Below, piece by piece: positions 37,332 through 43,925 of a stretch of 64,000 bases of DNA. The position numbers and the translations under genes are program-made. The stretch is from NCBI RefSeq assembly GCF_900090325.1, contig NZ_FMHW01000002.1, positions 4,713,001 through 4,777,000 of the forward strand. Reading direction: 5' to 3'. The DNA comes from Micromonospora pallida. Its GTDB lineage: Bacteria > Actinomycetota > Actinomycetes > Mycobacteriales > Micromonosporaceae. Under the pieces are notes generated by a model, which had not been told where the DNA came from, did no database searches, and was given only the letters and a program-made list of their open reading frames with translations. Every line of letters starts with the position of its first letter. Positions within the stretch are counted from its first letter, which is position 1.

Positions 37332-38792
37332 CTAGCGCTGCCAGACCCGGATGTAGTCGACGCGGAAGTCGGCCGGGAAGACCGTCCCGGCGTCCGGGTC
37401 GCCGAGCCAGCCGCCGACCTGGAAGTTCAACCGCAGGTTGTACGGCTTGTGGAACACCTCGTCGAACCAGGGCGTGGTGGCGCGGTTGCGTTCGTAGACC
37501 TTGCGGCCGTCGATGTACCAGCGGATCGCGTCCGGCTCCCACTCCGTGGTGTACGTGTGGAACCCGTCGCCCGGGTGGCCGTCGTTCGGGAAGGTCCACC
37601 GCTGGTCCTGCTTGACCGGAGTGTAGTCGTAGAAGATCGCCTGGGTGGCGGACCGGTAGTACTGGTTGCCGCCGGGCAGCTCCACCACGTCGATCTCGCC
37701 CCGGCCGCCGTCCTCCGGGCGCAGCCAGAACGCCGGCCAGAGCCCCCGGGAGTCGTACGGGCCGTTCGGCGACTCGGCCCGCATCTCGAACCGGCCGTAC
37801 GTCCAGGAGTGCCGACCGATCGTGTCCAGGTAGCTCTGGGTGTAGTGCCGGGTCTGCGAGCCGCACTGGGTGGTCTGGCGCAGCGCGCGCAGGGTCAGCA
37901 CGCCGTCCGCGACGAAGGTGTTCTGTGGACTGTTCGTGTTGCAGCCCTTGTCGATGTCCCGCGCCTCACCGGTGCGCAGGTTCCACTTGGCATAGTCGAC
38001 CGACCGGCCGTTGAACTCGTCGTTCCAGACCAGCCGCCAGCCGGGCACCTGGCCGGGCGCGGTCCGGGTCGGGCTCGGCGTGGGTCGGCTCGGGCTGACC
38101 GACGGACTGGGCTTCGCCGTGGTCGGCGCCGGGGTCGGTCGGGCGGTCGTCCGGCTCGGGGACGGCTCCGGGGCGGCCGTCGTCCGCGACGGTGTGGGGG
38201 CTGCTCCCCCGCCGTCCCGGTAGGTCAGGACGAGCTGGGGACGCAACTCCGGGCGGGAGTTGTCCCGGGACGCCCAGTAGATCCGGGTGTGGTGACTCTG
38301 CTGGGTCAGCGCGAAGGTGTAGGAGCCGTTACCGGTGACCGCCCGGCTGACGTCCCACTCGTTGTGCCCCTTGCCGACCTCGTTGACACCGTCCAGGGCC
38401 GGGCCGAGGGAGGGCCGCTCGGTCCAGTCGCCGCCGAAGTTCGCCGCGCCGACGGCGAAGTGGGCGAACACCCGGGCTGTGAAGGGCTGCCAGGCGTGCA
38501 CCCGCAGGACCGCCCGGACGTCCCGGGCGTTGGCGGGCAGCGCGGTCACGTCGAACTGCAACAACGCGTCCCGCCGGCCGTTCGGGTTGCGGTCGCAGAG
38601 CCGGGGGCAACTGGACAGCGTCGTCTTGACGCTGGTGTCCCCGTCATGGACCACCTGGGTCGCGGTGGTGTCCGCGACCGCGCCCATCGTGACCGAGGTG
38701 TCGTCGTCGGCGAAGAGCGGCAGCACGGACAGGGTCAGCAGGGCCGTGGTCCCCGCCGCCACCAGGGCGATCGCTGAACCTCGTCGTAACAT
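37332..38792 (-). CDS. secreted GH16 glycoside hydrolase with DNRLRE domain
   Basis: This encodes 486 residues from ATG 38792, with GGGGAG five nt upstream. A signal peptide (SAIALVAAGTTALLTLSVLP) is followed by a DNRLRE/CBM96-like domain (about 35-190) and a Pro/Ser/Thr linker of SPSRTTARPTP-like units (about 195-245). A GH16 beta-jelly roll (about 250-486) follows, with LVWNDEFNG at the start, the active site GEIDVVELPG (ExDxxE nucleophile and acid/base), and TTEWEPDAIRWYIDG. GH16 enzymes cleave beta-1,3/1,4-glucans or galactans. Here it may trim or release the locus's own polymer or degrade environmental glucan. It shares its accessory domain type with the beta-helix protein at the other end of the locus. 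Confidence 0.92.
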   Translation of the reverse strand: MLRRGSAIALVAAGTTALLTLSVLPLFADDDTSVTMGAVADTTATQVVHDGDTSVKTTLSSCPRLCDRNPNGRRDALLQFDVTALPANARDVRAVLRVHAWQPFTARVFAHFAVGAANFGGDWTERPSLGPALDGVNEVGKGHNEWDVSRAVTGNGSYTFALTQQSHHTRIYWASRDNSRPELRPQLVLTYRDGGGAAPTPSRTTAAPEPSPSRTTARPTPAPTTAKPSPSVSPSRPTPSPTRTAPGQVPGWRLVWNDEFNGRSVDYAKWNLRTGEARDIDKGCNTNSPQNTFVADGVLTLRALRQTTQCGSQTRHYTQSYLDTIGRHSWTYGRFEMRAESPNGPYDSRGLWPAFWLRPEDGGRGEIDVVELPGGNQYYRSATQAIFYDYTPVKQDQRWTFPNDGHPGDGFHTYTTEWEPDAIRWYIDGRKVYERNRATTPWFDEVFHKPYNLRLNFQVGGWLGDPDAGTVFPADFRVDYIRVWQR

Positions 38793-38849
38793 CGGACTCC
38801 CCGGGACAGGTCGAACTCGGGCTGTCGATGACAAAAAGTAGCTGCACGC

Positions 38850-38875: not shown

Positions 38876-38940
38876 CGCCGAACCGCAACTTCACCCTCTG
38901 CTAAGACTCGCCCCCGACTGCGAGCGTCGCTCCGCTGCTT

Positions 38941-38984
38941 CTGCCGGGTGGCGTCCCATGCTATTCGACCGTGCCACCCGGCAG
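38941..38984. terminator. 12-bp stem hairpin in the gap between GH16 and the caspase-helicase gene
   Basis: CTGCCGGGTGGC (38941-38952) pairs perfectly with GCCACCCGGCAG (38973-38984), with a 20-nt loop. It is 129 nt past the caspase-helicase stop on the minus strand and could end that operon. The remaining gap 38793-39112 shows only a 31-residue frame that I do not accept as a gene. Confidence 0.45.
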
Positions 38985-39112
38985 GACGTCGTGCAGAGCA
39001 GGGGTCACGTCGACCTGCTGCGCGAACGGATCGACGGCTGCATCGGCCAGTAGGCGTCGACCGCTTCTACCCGGTCGGCGTTCCCGCGTTCCCGCCTCCT
39101 CGTTGGTCTGGA

Positions 39113-42100
39113 TCATCCGCTCACGCTATGCCCGGTCTGATTGTGCTCTGATCGGCGGAGGTCCTCAGTCACCTCTGCGGCCACCTGCTCCGGCTCGGCC
39201 AGGCAGCGCCATGCTGGTACTCGACGAACAGGCATGACGCCACCAGTGATGTCGAGACGCGCAAGCGCCTTACGCAGTTCCCGACCATCGGAATCGCCTG
39301 CCGGATCGTCGATGACCATGGCCAGCTCGACATTCGCGCTGCGCACCACGAGGTCGACCATCCGTCCGGCTACGGGGACGTCACGGCGGACGACGAGACC
39401 GGTGCTGCGAAGGGCACGGTGCAACAGGTCAGCTGGCCCCGTAGTGGCGTCAGGCGCAGCACGAGCGACATCGCTGCCGCGGGCCAGAGCGGTGAGCAAC
39501 CCGCGTTGACCAGACCACCATGATTGGTCACCTACCACGACAAGCTGGGATCGGGCCCGAGTGATGGCAACATTCCACAGGTTGGTCTGATGGGCGAGCC
39601 AGCCTCGGGTGCGATCCGGAATCCCGTGCGCCCCAACTGGCGAGACGACCATGATGTCCCGTTCGCTTCCCTGGAATTTGTGAATGGTCGCGCAGAGAAG
39701 GTTGTCGGTCAGGCCGGCGCTGCTCAGGGCCGCAGCCAGGCGACGCTGGTGCGCGGCAAGCGGCGTGACCACCCCGATCGAGACATCAGGATAGGTCGCC
39801 CGCAGGCGCGCCACCTCGGCGACAACCTCATCGATCTCCACCTGGTTCAGCCCGGAACCGGTGGTCCCAGGGTTGAACCTTCCGGGGACGTTGTGCCAGC
39901 GCACCGCCGGCTCGGCCGGGGCGGCCAGCCGGGCCGGATCGGTCAGCACGGTGAGCCGACTCTGGTAGACCTCCCGGTTCGGTGCCTCGACGATGTCCGG
40001 GTGGCATCGATAGTGCTCATCCAGGAGATACGTCGCGCCCGCCGCGGCGGCAAACGCATCGTACGCGGAGTGGCCGGTGTAGGTCAGTCGTCGTGGCGTC
40101 AACCATCCGGTGCTCAGGTCGGCCCGGGCCCGTTCGGCGACGTCGTCAGCCTCGGGCAGGTCCACGACGGGCGGGAGCTGACGTGGGTCGCCGATGATCA
40201 GTGCGCGCTTGGCGCGGTAGAGCATGGGCAGGATCGCGGGAATGGTGCACTGCGCAGCCTCGTCGATCACCACAAGGTCATACAGGGCGGGGCTTCTGCG
40301 CAGCCGCCGGGCAGACAGTGCGGTCACCGCCCAGCCGGGCAGCACCTGCAGCAGTTCGGGGAAGTAGGACCAGCTGTCCGACTGGGACTTGGCCATCTCG
40401 TCGGCCCTGTCCTGCAGGATGCGTGCTCCCGCAGCCACCCGGCGGGCGATCTGTACGCGCAGCAGTTCGACGCTGCGGGCGGGGCGTTCGGTGCCGATCA
40501 GGGCGACCAGTCTGCGCCAGGTGACGTCGGCATCGGGCAGTTCGGCGAGGCGCTGCCGCCGTTCCCGCCAGCGCAGCTCGATCACCGCCCGCCCGGCCAG
40601 CGCCTCAATGGCGTCCCGGTCGATCAGCCGGTACGACCGCAGCCGCCACCGGTACCACCACCCGAACCACCTGCTGGCGAGGGCTCGGTCGGTCAGATGG
40701 ACGAGCCGGGCCAGATTGACGTCGTCGTCTGGCAGCGCAACCGCGTCTGCACCCGAGTCGGAGTTGCGCTCCATGGCCAGGTCAGCGAGATCGCGTTCAA
40801 TCAGACGCCGCTGGTTCAGCGTCTCACGGAGGGCGCCAGCTTCGTCAGCCAGCAGGCGCAACTCGTGCAGGACCGTGCGGTCGTCCGGCATCATCCGCTG
40901 CTCTGCTGCCGGATACGCCGCAAGAATGTCGGCAAGATGTTTGGGTTCCTGCTGCCGGTGCTCCTTGTTGCCGGTCCGCAGCAGCAGGCCCGGACCGATC
41001 AGGTCGGTGACCCGGCCGAGCACGGAGTCGACGGCCTGGTTGCTGGTGGAACCGATCAGCACGCTCTCACCGGCGGCGGTGGCGGTGGCCAACAGGGCGG
41101 TGACCAGTTGGCTCTTACCGGTGCCCGGCGGCCCCTGGGCGACGGTCAACGGTTGTGACATCGCCGCTTGGATGATCTCTTCCTGTGCTTCGTTCGCCGC
41201 GCTCAGCGCCACTGTCACGACCGGCTTCGCAGGTGCCTCGTCCGGACGGAGCGCCAGCGCGCCCAGCGCGGTCCGTTCGATGAGCTTCGGATTCTTGATC
41301 ATCCCCCGCAGGTCATCGATGAGCTGCCGCTGTGGCGATTCGGTCGCGTCGACGGCATAGAGGATGGCCGCGTTCTGTGCCCCGTTCAACCGTCCCAGCT
41401 GGATAACTCCGGCGAGCATCGCCGGATCGAGTTCAACCACCGGATTCAGCCCGAACGTCTTCATGAGCAGATCGACGGTGGCGGCGAGGGCGACGAGATC
41501 ACCCGCCACGAAGACCTGCTCGACGCGTTGCAGCAGTTCGTCGGTCTCCGCCTCAGAGAGCTGGAACAGGTCGACGAGGGCCGGGCTGGGACGGGGTGGG
41601 AAGGAGGGGTGCAGGACGTCGTCCGTGCCGACCGTGACGTCACAGACCAGTAGCGGAGCCAGCCGTGGTGCCTGCTGCCGACCGGGACGGACGGCGACGA
41701 CCGGATAGCCGTACTGCAGTTCCCGGCCATCGGCTCGGGCTCGCGCGGCGAGTTTGGCAGCCGTACCGCTGAGCCGAACGGGCGTTTCCGAGGTAAAGAC
41801 GGCCTCCGGCCCGGGCGGAGCCGCCACGTACGTGTTGGTTGCCCGGGGATCGATGAACGACTGCAGCACCGTCGACCGCTGCATGCACCTGACGTAGTAG
41901 GTCACCAGGCGACGCCACTGGTCCGCGTCGAACGGTGCCTCGTCCGCCGCGCTCGCTGTGGCGGTTACGGTCTGCTCCGCGGCAGCGACCGAACCCGGTA
42001 TCGCCACCAGTCGGATGGGCTCGGTGATTCCCTCGCTCGACTCGACGGGCCGGTGCTGACGGCGTCGGGCCATCTCGGTCGGAACGTACCGGGAGAGGTC

Positions 42101-42721
42101 GTTGGTGGTGATCCAGCCGTCGTCCGACGTCCCCCCGGCCGCACCGGACAGACCGGTCAGGAGCACCTCGGTGAAGACCGATGGCCGGTCTTCCCCCTGC
42201 GTCTTGGACGCCTTCATGTGGTTGCTGGAGGTGAGGATGAAGGTGCCGCGTTCACGCTTGGTGCGCCGCGGCTCCTCGCGCGCACCGCCACGGAAACGGT
42301 GTCTGGCCGTGAACGCCCCGGAGAAGCAGCAGTCGAACAGAACCACCTTCTGGCTGGCCTTCGTGTGGTTGAGCAGATGACGCAGGGCACCGTCGACGTC
42401 GAAGGCGGTCGCGTGCAACTGCCCGCACACGGTGTCGGTCGCAGCCAGGAACAGTGACTGTCCGTCGCCGTGCAGTACGCCATGACCGGAGTAGTAGAGC
42501 AGGGCCAGGTCGCTGGTGGTCCGCGCGCTGTAGAACTCCTCGACGACCTGACGCAGATGCGCAGCCGGCAGGTCCAGCTCGGTGCGAACGGAGTCGAACT
42601 GGCCGGCAGCGTCCAACAATGCCTTGAGCTGCGCCACGTCCTGTCGTACCGCGGGAAGAGGCTGAAGCTCGCGCTCGACGTGGCAGATTGCCGTTCCGAG
42701 CAGCAGGGCGTGCCGCCCCAT
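39113..42721 (-). CDS. caspase-like peptidase fused to SF1 (UPF1/DNA2-like) helicase and nuclease-like C-terminus
   Basis: This encodes 1202 residues. Residues about 1-230 are a caspase/metacaspase C14 domain with the catalytic His in LALLYYSGHG (His80) and Cys in VVLFDCCFSGAF (Cys132). A linker region (about 230-480) follows. From about 505 it is a superfamily 1 helicase of the AAA_11/AAA_12 type: Walker A GPPGTGKS (about 529-536), Walker B VVIDEAAQC (about 815), then IGDPRQLPPV, DEHYRCHPDI, IHKFQGSERDIMVVSP and NVAITRARSQLVVVGD. The C-terminal about 100 residues (LVVRRDVPVAGRMVDLVV) resemble restriction-endonuclease-fold tails of similar helicases. Its ATG overlaps the stop of the EACC1-like gene (TGATG). 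It is probably an effector that senses nucleic acid and triggers proteolysis in phage defence or programmed death. That role is inferred. Confidence 0.9.
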   Translation of the reverse strand: MGRHALLLGTAICHVERELQPLPAVRQDVAQLKALLDAAGQFDSVRTELDLPAAHLRQVVEEFYSARTTSDLALLYYSGHGVLHGDGQSLFLAATDTVCGQLHATAFDVDGALRHLLNHTKASQKVVLFDCCFSGAFTARHRFRGGAREEPRRTKRERGTFILTSSNHMKASKTQGEDRPSVFTEVLLTGLSGAAGGTSDDGWITTNDLSRYVPTEMARRRQHRPVESSEGITEPIRLVAIPGSVAAAEQTVTATASAADEAPFDADQWRRLVTYYVRCMQRSTVLQSFIDPRATNTYVAAPPGPEAVFTSETPVRLSGTAAKLAARARADGRELQYGYPVVAVRPGRQQAPRLAPLLVCDVTVGTDDVLHPSFPPRPSPALVDLFQLSEAETDELLQRVEQVFVAGDLVALAATVDLLMKTFGLNPVVELDPAMLAGVIQLGRLNGAQNAAILYAVDATESPQRQLIDDLRGMIKNPKLIERTALGALALRPDEAPAKPVVTVALSAANEAQEEIIQAAMSQPLTVAQGPPGTGKSQLVTALLATATAAGESVLIGSTSNQAVDSVLGRVTDLIGPGLLLRTGNKEHRQQEPKHLADILAAYPAAEQRMMPDDRTVLHELRLLADEAGALRETLNQRRLIERDLADLAMERNSDSGADAVALPDDDVNLARLVHLTDRALASRWFGWWYRWRLRSYRLIDRDAIEALAGRAVIELRWRERRQRLAELPDADVTWRRLVALIGTERPARSVELLRVQIARRVAAGARILQDRADEMAKSQSDSWSYFPELLQVLPGWAVTALSARRLRRSPALYDLVVIDEAAQCTIPAILPMLYRAKRALIIGDPRQLPPVVDLPEADDVAERARADLSTGWLTPRRLTYTGHSAYDAFAAAAGATYLLDEHYRCHPDIVEAPNREVYQSRLTVLTDPARLAAPAEPAVRWHNVPGRFNPGTTGSGLNQVEIDEVVAEVARLRATYPDVSIGVVTPLAAHQRRLAAALSSAGLTDNLLCATIHKFQGSERDIMVVSPVGAHGIPDRTRGWLAHQTNLWNVAITRARSQLVVVGDQSWWSGQRGLLTALARGSDVARAAPDATTGPADLLHRALRSTGLVVRRDVPVAGRMVDLVVRSANVELAMVIDDPAGDSDGRELRKALARLDITGGVMPVRRVPAWRCLAEPEQVAAEVTEDLRRSEHNQTGHSVSG

Positions 42722-43101
42722 CAGCGACGGGATCCTTCGATCGCTGCCTGCACCGTCCTGATCAGTTCGTCGGTCTGGCTGCGCGTGGGTCGGTCGATGA
42801 TGAGCTCGATATCGCCGACCCGCAGGTGCGCCCGGCGACCGGTGTGGCGTTGCAGGAAGGCCAGGACCACGTCGACCAGAGCCTGCACGTACCCGGGCTC
42901 GGCGCCCGCCAGTACGGTCACCACGCCGAGCGCCAACTCTCCGACGCCCTTGGCATCCGGGTCGGTGACGGGCTGCTCGACGCGCTCCACCTCACCAACC
43001 TCGCGGAGGTCGTCCGCCAGTTCATCGGTCAGCTGGCCAAGGACGAACTCGTCGTCGTCGGCCACCGGCGTGAAGTCGACCTGGATTCGGACGTGAGACA
43101 C
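42721..43101 (-). CDS. EACC1-like small partner of the caspase-helicase
   Basis: This encodes 126 residues from GTG 43101, with a strong GGAGG 5 nt upstream; a longer in-frame extension to 43188 lacks support. The N-terminal part (VSHVRIQVDFTPVADDDEFV) is a beta-strand and acidic region. The C-terminal half has a long helix (YVQALVDVVLAFLQRH) followed by RAHLRVGDIELIIDRPTRSQ and a last helix. This helix, two-strand hairpin and helix ending is the pattern I associate with EACC1 (effector-associated constant component 1), a small protein found beside variable effectors such as caspases in actinobacterial conflict systems. The stop overlaps the caspase-helicase start, so the two are made together. 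Confidence 0.75.
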   Translation of the reverse strand: MSHVRIQVDFTPVADDDEFVLGQLTDELADDLREVGEVERVEQPVTDPDAKGVGELALGVVTVLAGAEPGYVQALVDVVLAFLQRHTGRRAHLRVGDIELIIDRPTRSQTDELIRTVQAAIEGSRR

Positions 43102-43301
43102 GCAACCTCCTCGATGTGCGGCGTTGGCAAGGCTACGGAGGCCGCCGGGCGAGTGGCCCCATCTGTCAGCTTCCCGATCGTTGTCCAATATGGATCAGAT
43201 ATTCCAACACGGAGTGGTCGTCTCTCTGATGTGGAGGGTCGCCGGGCCAGACTCCGCACCTGGTCACGCTGGTCGAAGTGGAAGACGACGCCCCTGACCG
43301 G

Positions 43302-43925
43302 TCAGATCAGGCCCTCGCGGACGGCGTACGCGACCGCGTGGGTTCGGTTGCGGAGCTGGAAGCGGGTGGTGATGTCGTGCAGCACGTTCTTCACGGTCCG
43401 CTCCGAGTAGCTGAGCCGGGTGGCCACCTCCCGGGTGTCCATCCCGTCGGCGACCAGCCGGAGCACCTGGCTTTCCCGGTGCGACAGTCCGTTGACGTCG
43501 ATGCCGCGCGGGGCGAGCACCGTCTGCTGCAACCGGGTCACCTGCTTGACCAGCCGTCCGAGCACGTCCGGCGGCATCGCGGCGCCGCCGGAGGCGGTGC
43601 TGACGACGAGCTGCGCCAGCCGGTGGCTGGTCGCCTCGGCCCGCGAGGCGAGGGCGCGTACGCCCAGCTCCACGGCGGGGATCAGGGCCGTGTCGGACTC
43701 GACGGTGGCGACCAGCACGAACCGCCGGCAGCCCAACCGGCGGACGGCCCGGAGCAGGTCCAGCGCGTCCTGGTCGAGCGTGTCGGCGGCGACCACGCCG
43801 ACGGTCTCGGCGGTGATCCGGTCCTCGACGACCTCGATCTCCATCCGCCCGCGCAGCGCGGCGGTGATACCGGCGGTGGAGATCGGGTCGGGGGTACGGA
43901 TGTATGCCTGCGTACGACCGGTCAT
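43302..43925 (-). CDS. LuxR-family (GerE-type HTH) regulator with receiver-like N-terminus
   Basis: This encodes 207 residues. The C-terminal 60 (about 147-207) are a LuxR/GerE helix-turn-helix: GLSHRESQVLRLVADGMDTR, EVATRLSYSERTVKNVLHDI. The N-terminal part is alpha/beta like a response-regulator receiver (AYIRTPDPISTAGITAAL, GVVAADTLDQDALDLLR, RFVLVATVE), but the usual acidic pocket and phospho-acceptor are not clear, so it may be an atypical, phosphorylation-independent receiver. No histidine kinase is adjacent. It is divergent from the SARP-type regulator across a 461-bp interval with a palindrome, and both flank the injection-system operon, which they may control. Confidence 0.85.
   Translation of the reverse strand: MTGRTQAYIRTPDPISTAGITAALRGRMEIEVVEDRITAETVGVVAADTLDQDALDLLRAVRRLGCRRFVLVATVESDTALIPAVELGVRALASRAEATSHRLAQLVVSTASGGAAMPPDVLGRLVKQVTRLQQTVLAPRGIDVNGLSHRESQVLRLVADGMDTREVATRLSYSERTVKNVLHDITTRFQLRNRTHAVAYAVREGLI

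Follow-up and report, generated by a model that had tools for sequence, protein, structure and literature searches.

A two-gene unit of Micromonospora pallida, found in the 64,000-nucleotide stretch that we analyzed (the window; contig NZ_FMHW01000002.1, positions 4,713,001 to 4,777,000), is probably a conflict system directed against mobile elements, in which a UPF1-like helicase would act as the sensor, a caspase fused to it as the effector, and a small EACC1-like protein as the gate. In this reading, which we draw from sequence, the caspase may have taken over from a nuclease that has since died. Both genes lie on the minus strand of the 7.76 Mb genome, with the open reading frames and coordinates given in an earlier note on this DNA, which had proposed a compact sense-and-kill conflict unit. 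The EACC1-like gene (42721..43101, 126 amino acids) starts with GTG at 43101, next to a ribosome-binding-like GGAGG at 43106-43110, and its TGA (42723-42721) overlaps the ATG of the second gene (39113..42721) by one base; the second gene ends at 39113 and encodes a fusion of 1202 amino acids. Pfam, NCBIfam, and an AlphaFold2 model divide this fusion into a caspase, a superfamily 1 (SF1) helicase, and a very probably dead nuclease; the domain coordinates given below are all on the minus strand.

Homologs were picked by likeness to the large protein. A scan across 84,980 species, each represented by one genome, confirmed 127 stretches, of which the best 80 were retained. They comprise 79 distinct loci, all actinobacterial by record title, which together with the window and five other loci of the genus make up a set of 85; L010-L015 and L017, which lie on the same contigs as loci of the scan, were left out. 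Counts over 78 refer to the proteins with a full-length frame. L168 and L175-L184 were found later and stand outside both the 85 and the 78, and L197, which has a partial frame, stands outside the trees.

The N-terminal caspase domain (residues 1-240, 42002..42721) scores 57.5 bits with Pfam Peptidase_C14 (cut-off 21.4) and 137.4 bits, just under the cut-off of 140, with NCBIfam NF047832 (caspase, EACC1-associated type), which aligns residues 4-219 with profile positions 2-210 of 211. The His80/Cys132 dyad, on whose conservation the earlier note had staked its proposal, is present in all 78 full-length proteins. MALT1 is the nearest solved caspase by sequence profile, and Asp28 and Asp130, found in 77 of the 78 proteins (the other has a gap), align with Asp residues of MALT1 that presumably form its Arg-binding S1 pocket. 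This alignment places both residues in the predicted S1 pocket of the caspase, which is thus predicted to cut after Arg or Lys. A candidate autoprocessing site is the disordered basic loop following the catalytic Cys (residues 137-158, 42248..42313), in which residues 141-157 have a predicted local distance difference test score (pLDDT) below 50 and at least one Lys or Arg is present in each of the 78 fusions.

The middle region (residues 265-500, 41222..41929) also occurs in the caspase-less helicases L171 and L172, whose matches run from query residue 256/259 onward. It is followed by a UPF1-like SF1 helicase motor (residues 505-1082, 39476..41209), with 94.7 bits for AAA_11 and 91.3 bits for AAA_12 (cut-off 27). 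Peptidase_C14, AAA_11, and AAA_12 all being well over their cut-offs, the fusion of a caspase to a full UPF1-like helicase, as previously claimed, is confirmed, and the motifs on which that claim was built, YYSGHG (with His80), DCCFSG (with Cys132), GPPGTGKS, VVIDEAAQC, GDPRQLPP, and ITRARSQ, are all present. The core motifs are invariant in the full-length proteins, more specifically at Walker A Lys536, Asp820-Glu821, Gln848, Arg905, Gln1017, and Arg1055. The AlphaFold2 model of residues 1-1200, built from a 52-row alignment, comprises caspase, helicase, and tail with a mean pLDDT of 85.1, falling below 50 at residues 141-157, 248-257, and 1084-1092. Its best Foldseek matches are senataxin, UPF1, and Sen1, with Aquarius, IGHMBP2, and Dna2 also found, and the best PADLOC match of the protein is MkoA (171.8 bits over residues 469-1068).

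The last domain (residues 1092-1190, 39152..39448) had been described as an endonuclease-like tail. The fold part of this description stands, since the tail is modelled as an alpha-beta-beta-beta-alpha-beta domain, but profile, model, and alignment together identify a degenerate Vsr/MTES_1575-type PD-(D/E)xK domain whose catalytic Glu is replaced. The MTES_1575 profile gives a sub-threshold match of 17.7 bits for the fusion L084 and no match in the window protein, L097, or L103; the tails of the fusions align with those of caspase-less relatives with an hhalign probability of 96.9% (E 2e-10). The Glu is absent in all 78 fusions, where its position holds Leu (49), Val (17), Ile (7), Met, Tyr, Ala, or His (one each), or a gap (one), and it was not seen in the printed tails of the later loci L168 and L175-L184. 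The two motif Asp residues are kept in 75 and 77 of the 78 fusions. The six nearest caspase-less relatives bearing the tail (L171, L172, L194, L196, L197, and L198) retain the Glu; L171, L196, and L198 score above the MTES_1575 cut-off, and L172 below it but above that of DUF559. The tail of the fusions is therefore very probably a dead nuclease, which would shift the effector role to the caspase. A related helicase encoded on a plasmid of Leptolinea sp. HRD-7 (L195:5896-9522, plus strand) has a phospholipase D (PLD)-like C-terminal end, as read from its sequence, in place of the Vsr-type tail.

The mechanism that we propose begins with the helicase, which would sense foreign or aberrant nucleic acid through binding and ATP-driven movement, and this sensing would release the fused N-terminal caspase. 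Judging from its conserved residues, the caspase would then process itself at the basic loop and cleave cellular proteins after Arg or Lys, leading to death or dormancy; that cells die as an outcome is our inference. EACC1, encoded just upstream, would hold the caspase off or gate it. As for the origin of the unit, a helicase-nuclease defence protein would have had its nuclease effector swapped for a caspase brought in together with EACC1. A more specific version, to which we give a little less than an even chance, is that of a single-chain nucleic-acid-sensing caspase, in which an EACC1-gated Arg/Lys caspase took the place of the nuclease as effector in a UPF1/senataxin-like helicase-nuclease of defence islands, and the dead nuclease was kept as a module for binding nucleic acid or a partner. 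If this is true, a DNA or RNA signal would be turned directly into proteolytic cell death, and the dead nuclease would be a readable record of the change of effector.

The model published for EACC1 systems (Kaur et al. 2020; PMC7159879) distributes the roles differently. There, EACC1 is a membrane-associated sensor that switches on the caspase, and the C-terminal part, here the helicase, is set free by autoproteolysis as the effector; a single conserved transmembrane helix in EACC1 is among the features described. In favor of this model, hydropathy is at or above 1.6, the usual threshold for a membrane segment, in 50 of 81 EACC1 proteins paired with the helicase, and the linker between caspase and helicase (residues 242-262, 41936..41998) contains Lys or Arg in 77 of the 78 fusions. 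The window copy agrees poorly with this, since its linker has no Lys or Arg even though the predicted cleavage sites of the caspase lie after basic residues, and its EACC1 segment reaches a hydropathy of only 1.37 in a protein modelled as a soluble-looking ferredoxin-like fold. Moreover, the only C-terminal nuclease of the fusions has lost its Glu throughout, which would make the freed helicase a weak effector, and for this reason we consider release of the helicase unlikely here and prefer the helicase as sensor. The two models make opposite predictions: ours expects sensing by the C-terminal "variable domain" and killing by the constant caspase.

Assignment of the small protein to EACC1 relies on its relatives. 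Its own score with PF19953 (18.2 bits) is below the Pfam cut-off of 23.6; the EACC1 type stated in the earlier note is upheld by the orthologous partners, 51 of 82 of which match PF19953 at E <= 0.1 (best E 1.8e-9), and by the neighbors of other caspases. Used as a query, the small protein gives weak matches (E 2e-5 to 0.02) directly upstream of at least 23 of the 29 caspase-only matches of the genus, as counted by hand among the matches listed. Its AlphaFold2 model (pLDDT 81.4) has a ferredoxin-like alpha/beta fold.

The pair itself is kept together across genomes, as had been anticipated: the small frame lies directly upstream of the large gene in 82 of the 85 loci, and of the remaining three, two start at contig ends and the third, L140, lacks the N-terminus of the large protein. 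In 77 of the 82 pairs, the two frames overlap by no more than 4 bases or are no more than 6 bases apart (a 4-base overlap in 27, a 1-base overlap in 21, a 6-base gap in 24), a spacing that fits translational coupling. EACC1 is thus apparently coupled to the caspase-helicase gene, in line with what the one-base overlap of stop and start had suggested before. The sub-threshold score might be taken to mean that an ordinary caspase-helicase happens to lie beside an unrelated small frame, but we regard chance neighborhood as extremely improbable, given that the frame is kept in nearly all loci while the flanks differ, and that the small partners align with one another.

The unit is patchily distributed. 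Among 160 genomes of a genus set that includes Micromonospora and Salinispora records, the large protein is full-length in 13: besides that of the window, nine have 78-84% identity to it, one has 62%, and two have 35-37%. C-terminal fragments occur in two more. These fragments (L022 in G081 and L023 in G130) cover the helicase and have no match to the caspase half, and the unit may be decaying in such genomes. A search of 396 evenly drawn genomes of the phylum at E <= 1e-60 found two proteins of full architecture, the window's and that of G393, and two without caspase. In the tree of the helicase motor, 38 fusions fall into a single clade (100/99) whose sister group is L171, L172, and L196 (98/93), and removing six long rows leaves the topology unchanged (fusion clade 99/98). 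L081, from a metagenome-assembled genome (MAG) of Acidimicrobiales, groups with L080, from a MAG of Pseudonocardiales, inside the Micromonosporaceae clade of the window, which points to horizontal transfer.

The surroundings of the unit also vary. None of the gene families flanking the window copy recurs at the 15 other loci of its clade with which it was compared, over flanks of up to 8 kb, and among those 15 only six pairs share any (six families in L069/L078, four in L072/L074, one or two in the rest). G033 and G013, two genomes that lack the system, retain the genes that flank it in the window, a LuxR-type regulator (43302..43925, minus strand) and a glycoside hydrolase of family 16 (GH16; 37332..38834, minus strand), both assigned with Pfam, at about 82-92% DNA identity. 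Their blastn alignments to the window break at 43298-43299 and 38896-38905, delimiting a swapped interval at 38906..43298. In place of the unit, the slot of G033 (L206) contains an S_4TM effector (267.6 bits, cut-off 26.9) and a 780-residue protein weakly similar to TCAD9 (17.5 bits, cut-off 40), and that of G013 (L209) a 405-residue protein, also weakly TCAD9-like (25.4 bits, same cut-off). Three different cargoes, all showing at least some sign of a conflict domain, thus occupy one slot, and the LuxR/GH16 slot is a possible hotspot of conflict systems in the genus. The patchiness of the unit, the absence of common flanks, and the other cargo found at the same site all lend weight to a conflict role.

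The same features bear on another explanation, namely that the unit serves nucleic-acid quality control or developmental death, the helicase sensing damage to the cell's own nucleic acid, such as R-loops or stalled forks, and triggering lysis of the compartment. The structural matches of the helicase would suit such a function, since proteins with UPF1/senataxin-like folds work on the cell's own RNA and on R-loops. EACC1 systems, moreover, go with a multicellular habit, seen in 650 of the 671 organisms of Table 1 of Kaur et al. (PMC7159879). For a developmental gene, it would nevertheless be unusual to be full-length in so few congeners, at differing sites, and in a slot that elsewhere holds conflict-type cargo, and we consider this housekeeping function improbable.

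The unit is bounded as the earlier note had it. The hairpin on its downstream side is real, an inverted repeat (38941..38984) with perfect 12-bp arms (38941-38952 and 38973-38984) 20 nt apart, although a scan found no terminator-like site; on the other side, the gap of about 200 bp is correct and extends to the end of the LuxR-type gene at 43302. In other loci, further genes recur beside the pair. One family, convergent with the pair, lies downstream in 17 of 79 loci, mostly of Streptomyces, and is the first gene in 16 of them (e.g., L096:11941-12993, L126:11956-13035, and L117:11881-12924, all on the minus strand). Its three scanned members are Beta_protein (PF14350, 190-213 bits), which is possibly a third component of that branch. 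Another gene recurs directly upstream of EACC1 in nine of 79 loci (e.g., L097:6932-7447, plus strand), and its only scanned member is a HATPase_c_2 regulator. The gene of the caspase-less L171 has a helicase gene on either side, one BrxHI-like (913.6 bits) and the other DruE-like (623.9 bits), and this arrangement (L171:5788-15929) may be an undescribed defence operon.

Several observations weigh against a caspase-effector conflict system that arose by replacement of a nuclease. A remoter group of caspase-less helicases (L024-L038 type) also lacks the catalytic Glu, so that two changes are needed, and loss of the nuclease alone does not prove its replacement. Relatives with an intact nuclease are only a handful, several of them on long branches. 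When the caspase domain is analyzed alone, the fusions are not recovered as one clade, although a single clade is not rejected (approximately unbiased test, p-AU 0.236). On the side of the partner, the sub-threshold EACC1 score of the window copy counts against the reading, and so does L140, in which EACC1 was not found within reach of the locus. Finally, the immediate neighbors of the window unit are not defence genes, and PADLOC tallies over the loci do not differ clearly between the nearest and the farther flanking genes. Even so, the sense-and-kill interpretation came through the checks on pairing, dyad, and EACC1-likeness, which did not refute it, and a helicase-sensing, caspase-killing unit gated by EACC1 is the reading that we consider probable. 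With 85 loci from many actinomycetes, it is directly testable.

Among known systems, MALT1 is similar to the unit as its nearest solved caspase by profile and in the alignment of Asp28 and Asp130, but it is a eukaryotic signalling protease without a helicase. Related SF1 helicases are also found in Mokosh (MkoA/MkoC) and among the PDC-S37 helicases of PADLOC. Mokosh has a PLD domain (PMC10952713), whereas the unit has a caspase instead of a PLD-like nuclease, and its Pfam matches, taken up to E 1, include none to PLD. Hhe and the MTES_1575-type proteins share the order of an SF1 helicase followed by a Vsr/MTES_1575-fold tail (for the MTES_1575 architecture, see the available text of PMC3710099); the unit differs from them in the missing catalytic Glu of its tail, in the caspase in front, and in having no HEPN or DUF4011 match in Pfam.

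The unit is also built like the conflict system termed System 4 (Kaur et al. 2020, PMC7159879; this kind also appears in PMC8195603). In System 4, which is prevalent among actinobacteria, a small gene of EACC1 type stands 5' of a gene whose protein begins with a caspase and varies in its C-terminus. The 5' gene of our unit belongs to the EACC1 family through its partners, the 3' gene is headed by a caspase with a conserved His/Cys dyad, and the constant pair is combined with a variable C-terminus in the genus, where 20 fetched proteins of the 29 caspase-only matches range from 456 to 1941 amino acids. The difference lies in the C-terminus, where our unit has a complete UPF1-like helicase followed by a Vsr-type nuclease that is very probably dead. 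In section 33 of Kaur et al. (PMC7159879), no SF1 helicase is named for System 4, and the passage of that paper on SF-I helicases concerns vWA-MoxR systems, with PIN; such a helicase may be listed in the System 4 source data, which hold up to 50 fused domains. No description of the helicase version or of the nuclease loss was found in the open literature searched, as far as that literature is accessible. The earlier note, which knew of no experimental description of this exact combination, has to be narrowed on this point: EACC1 and a caspase with a variable C-terminus were already published, and only the helicase version may be undescribed.

Finally, the consulted text on Canu (PMC12799240) describes a bacterial caspase as the proteolytic trigger of phage defence, with escape mutations that map to a phage SF1 helicase. 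Canu consists of separate genes with an Ig-like (immunoglobulin-like) domain and a gated pro-nuclease of the metallo-beta-lactamase fold, with no fused helicase or EACC1 in that description; Pfam gave no match to this fold in the two proteins of the unit or in its two neighbors. Bacterial defence caspases such as that of Canu are known as partners of other sensors, whereas here the sensor motor and the caspase would be one polypeptide, a logic comparable to that of animal pathways linking nucleic-acid helicases to caspases.

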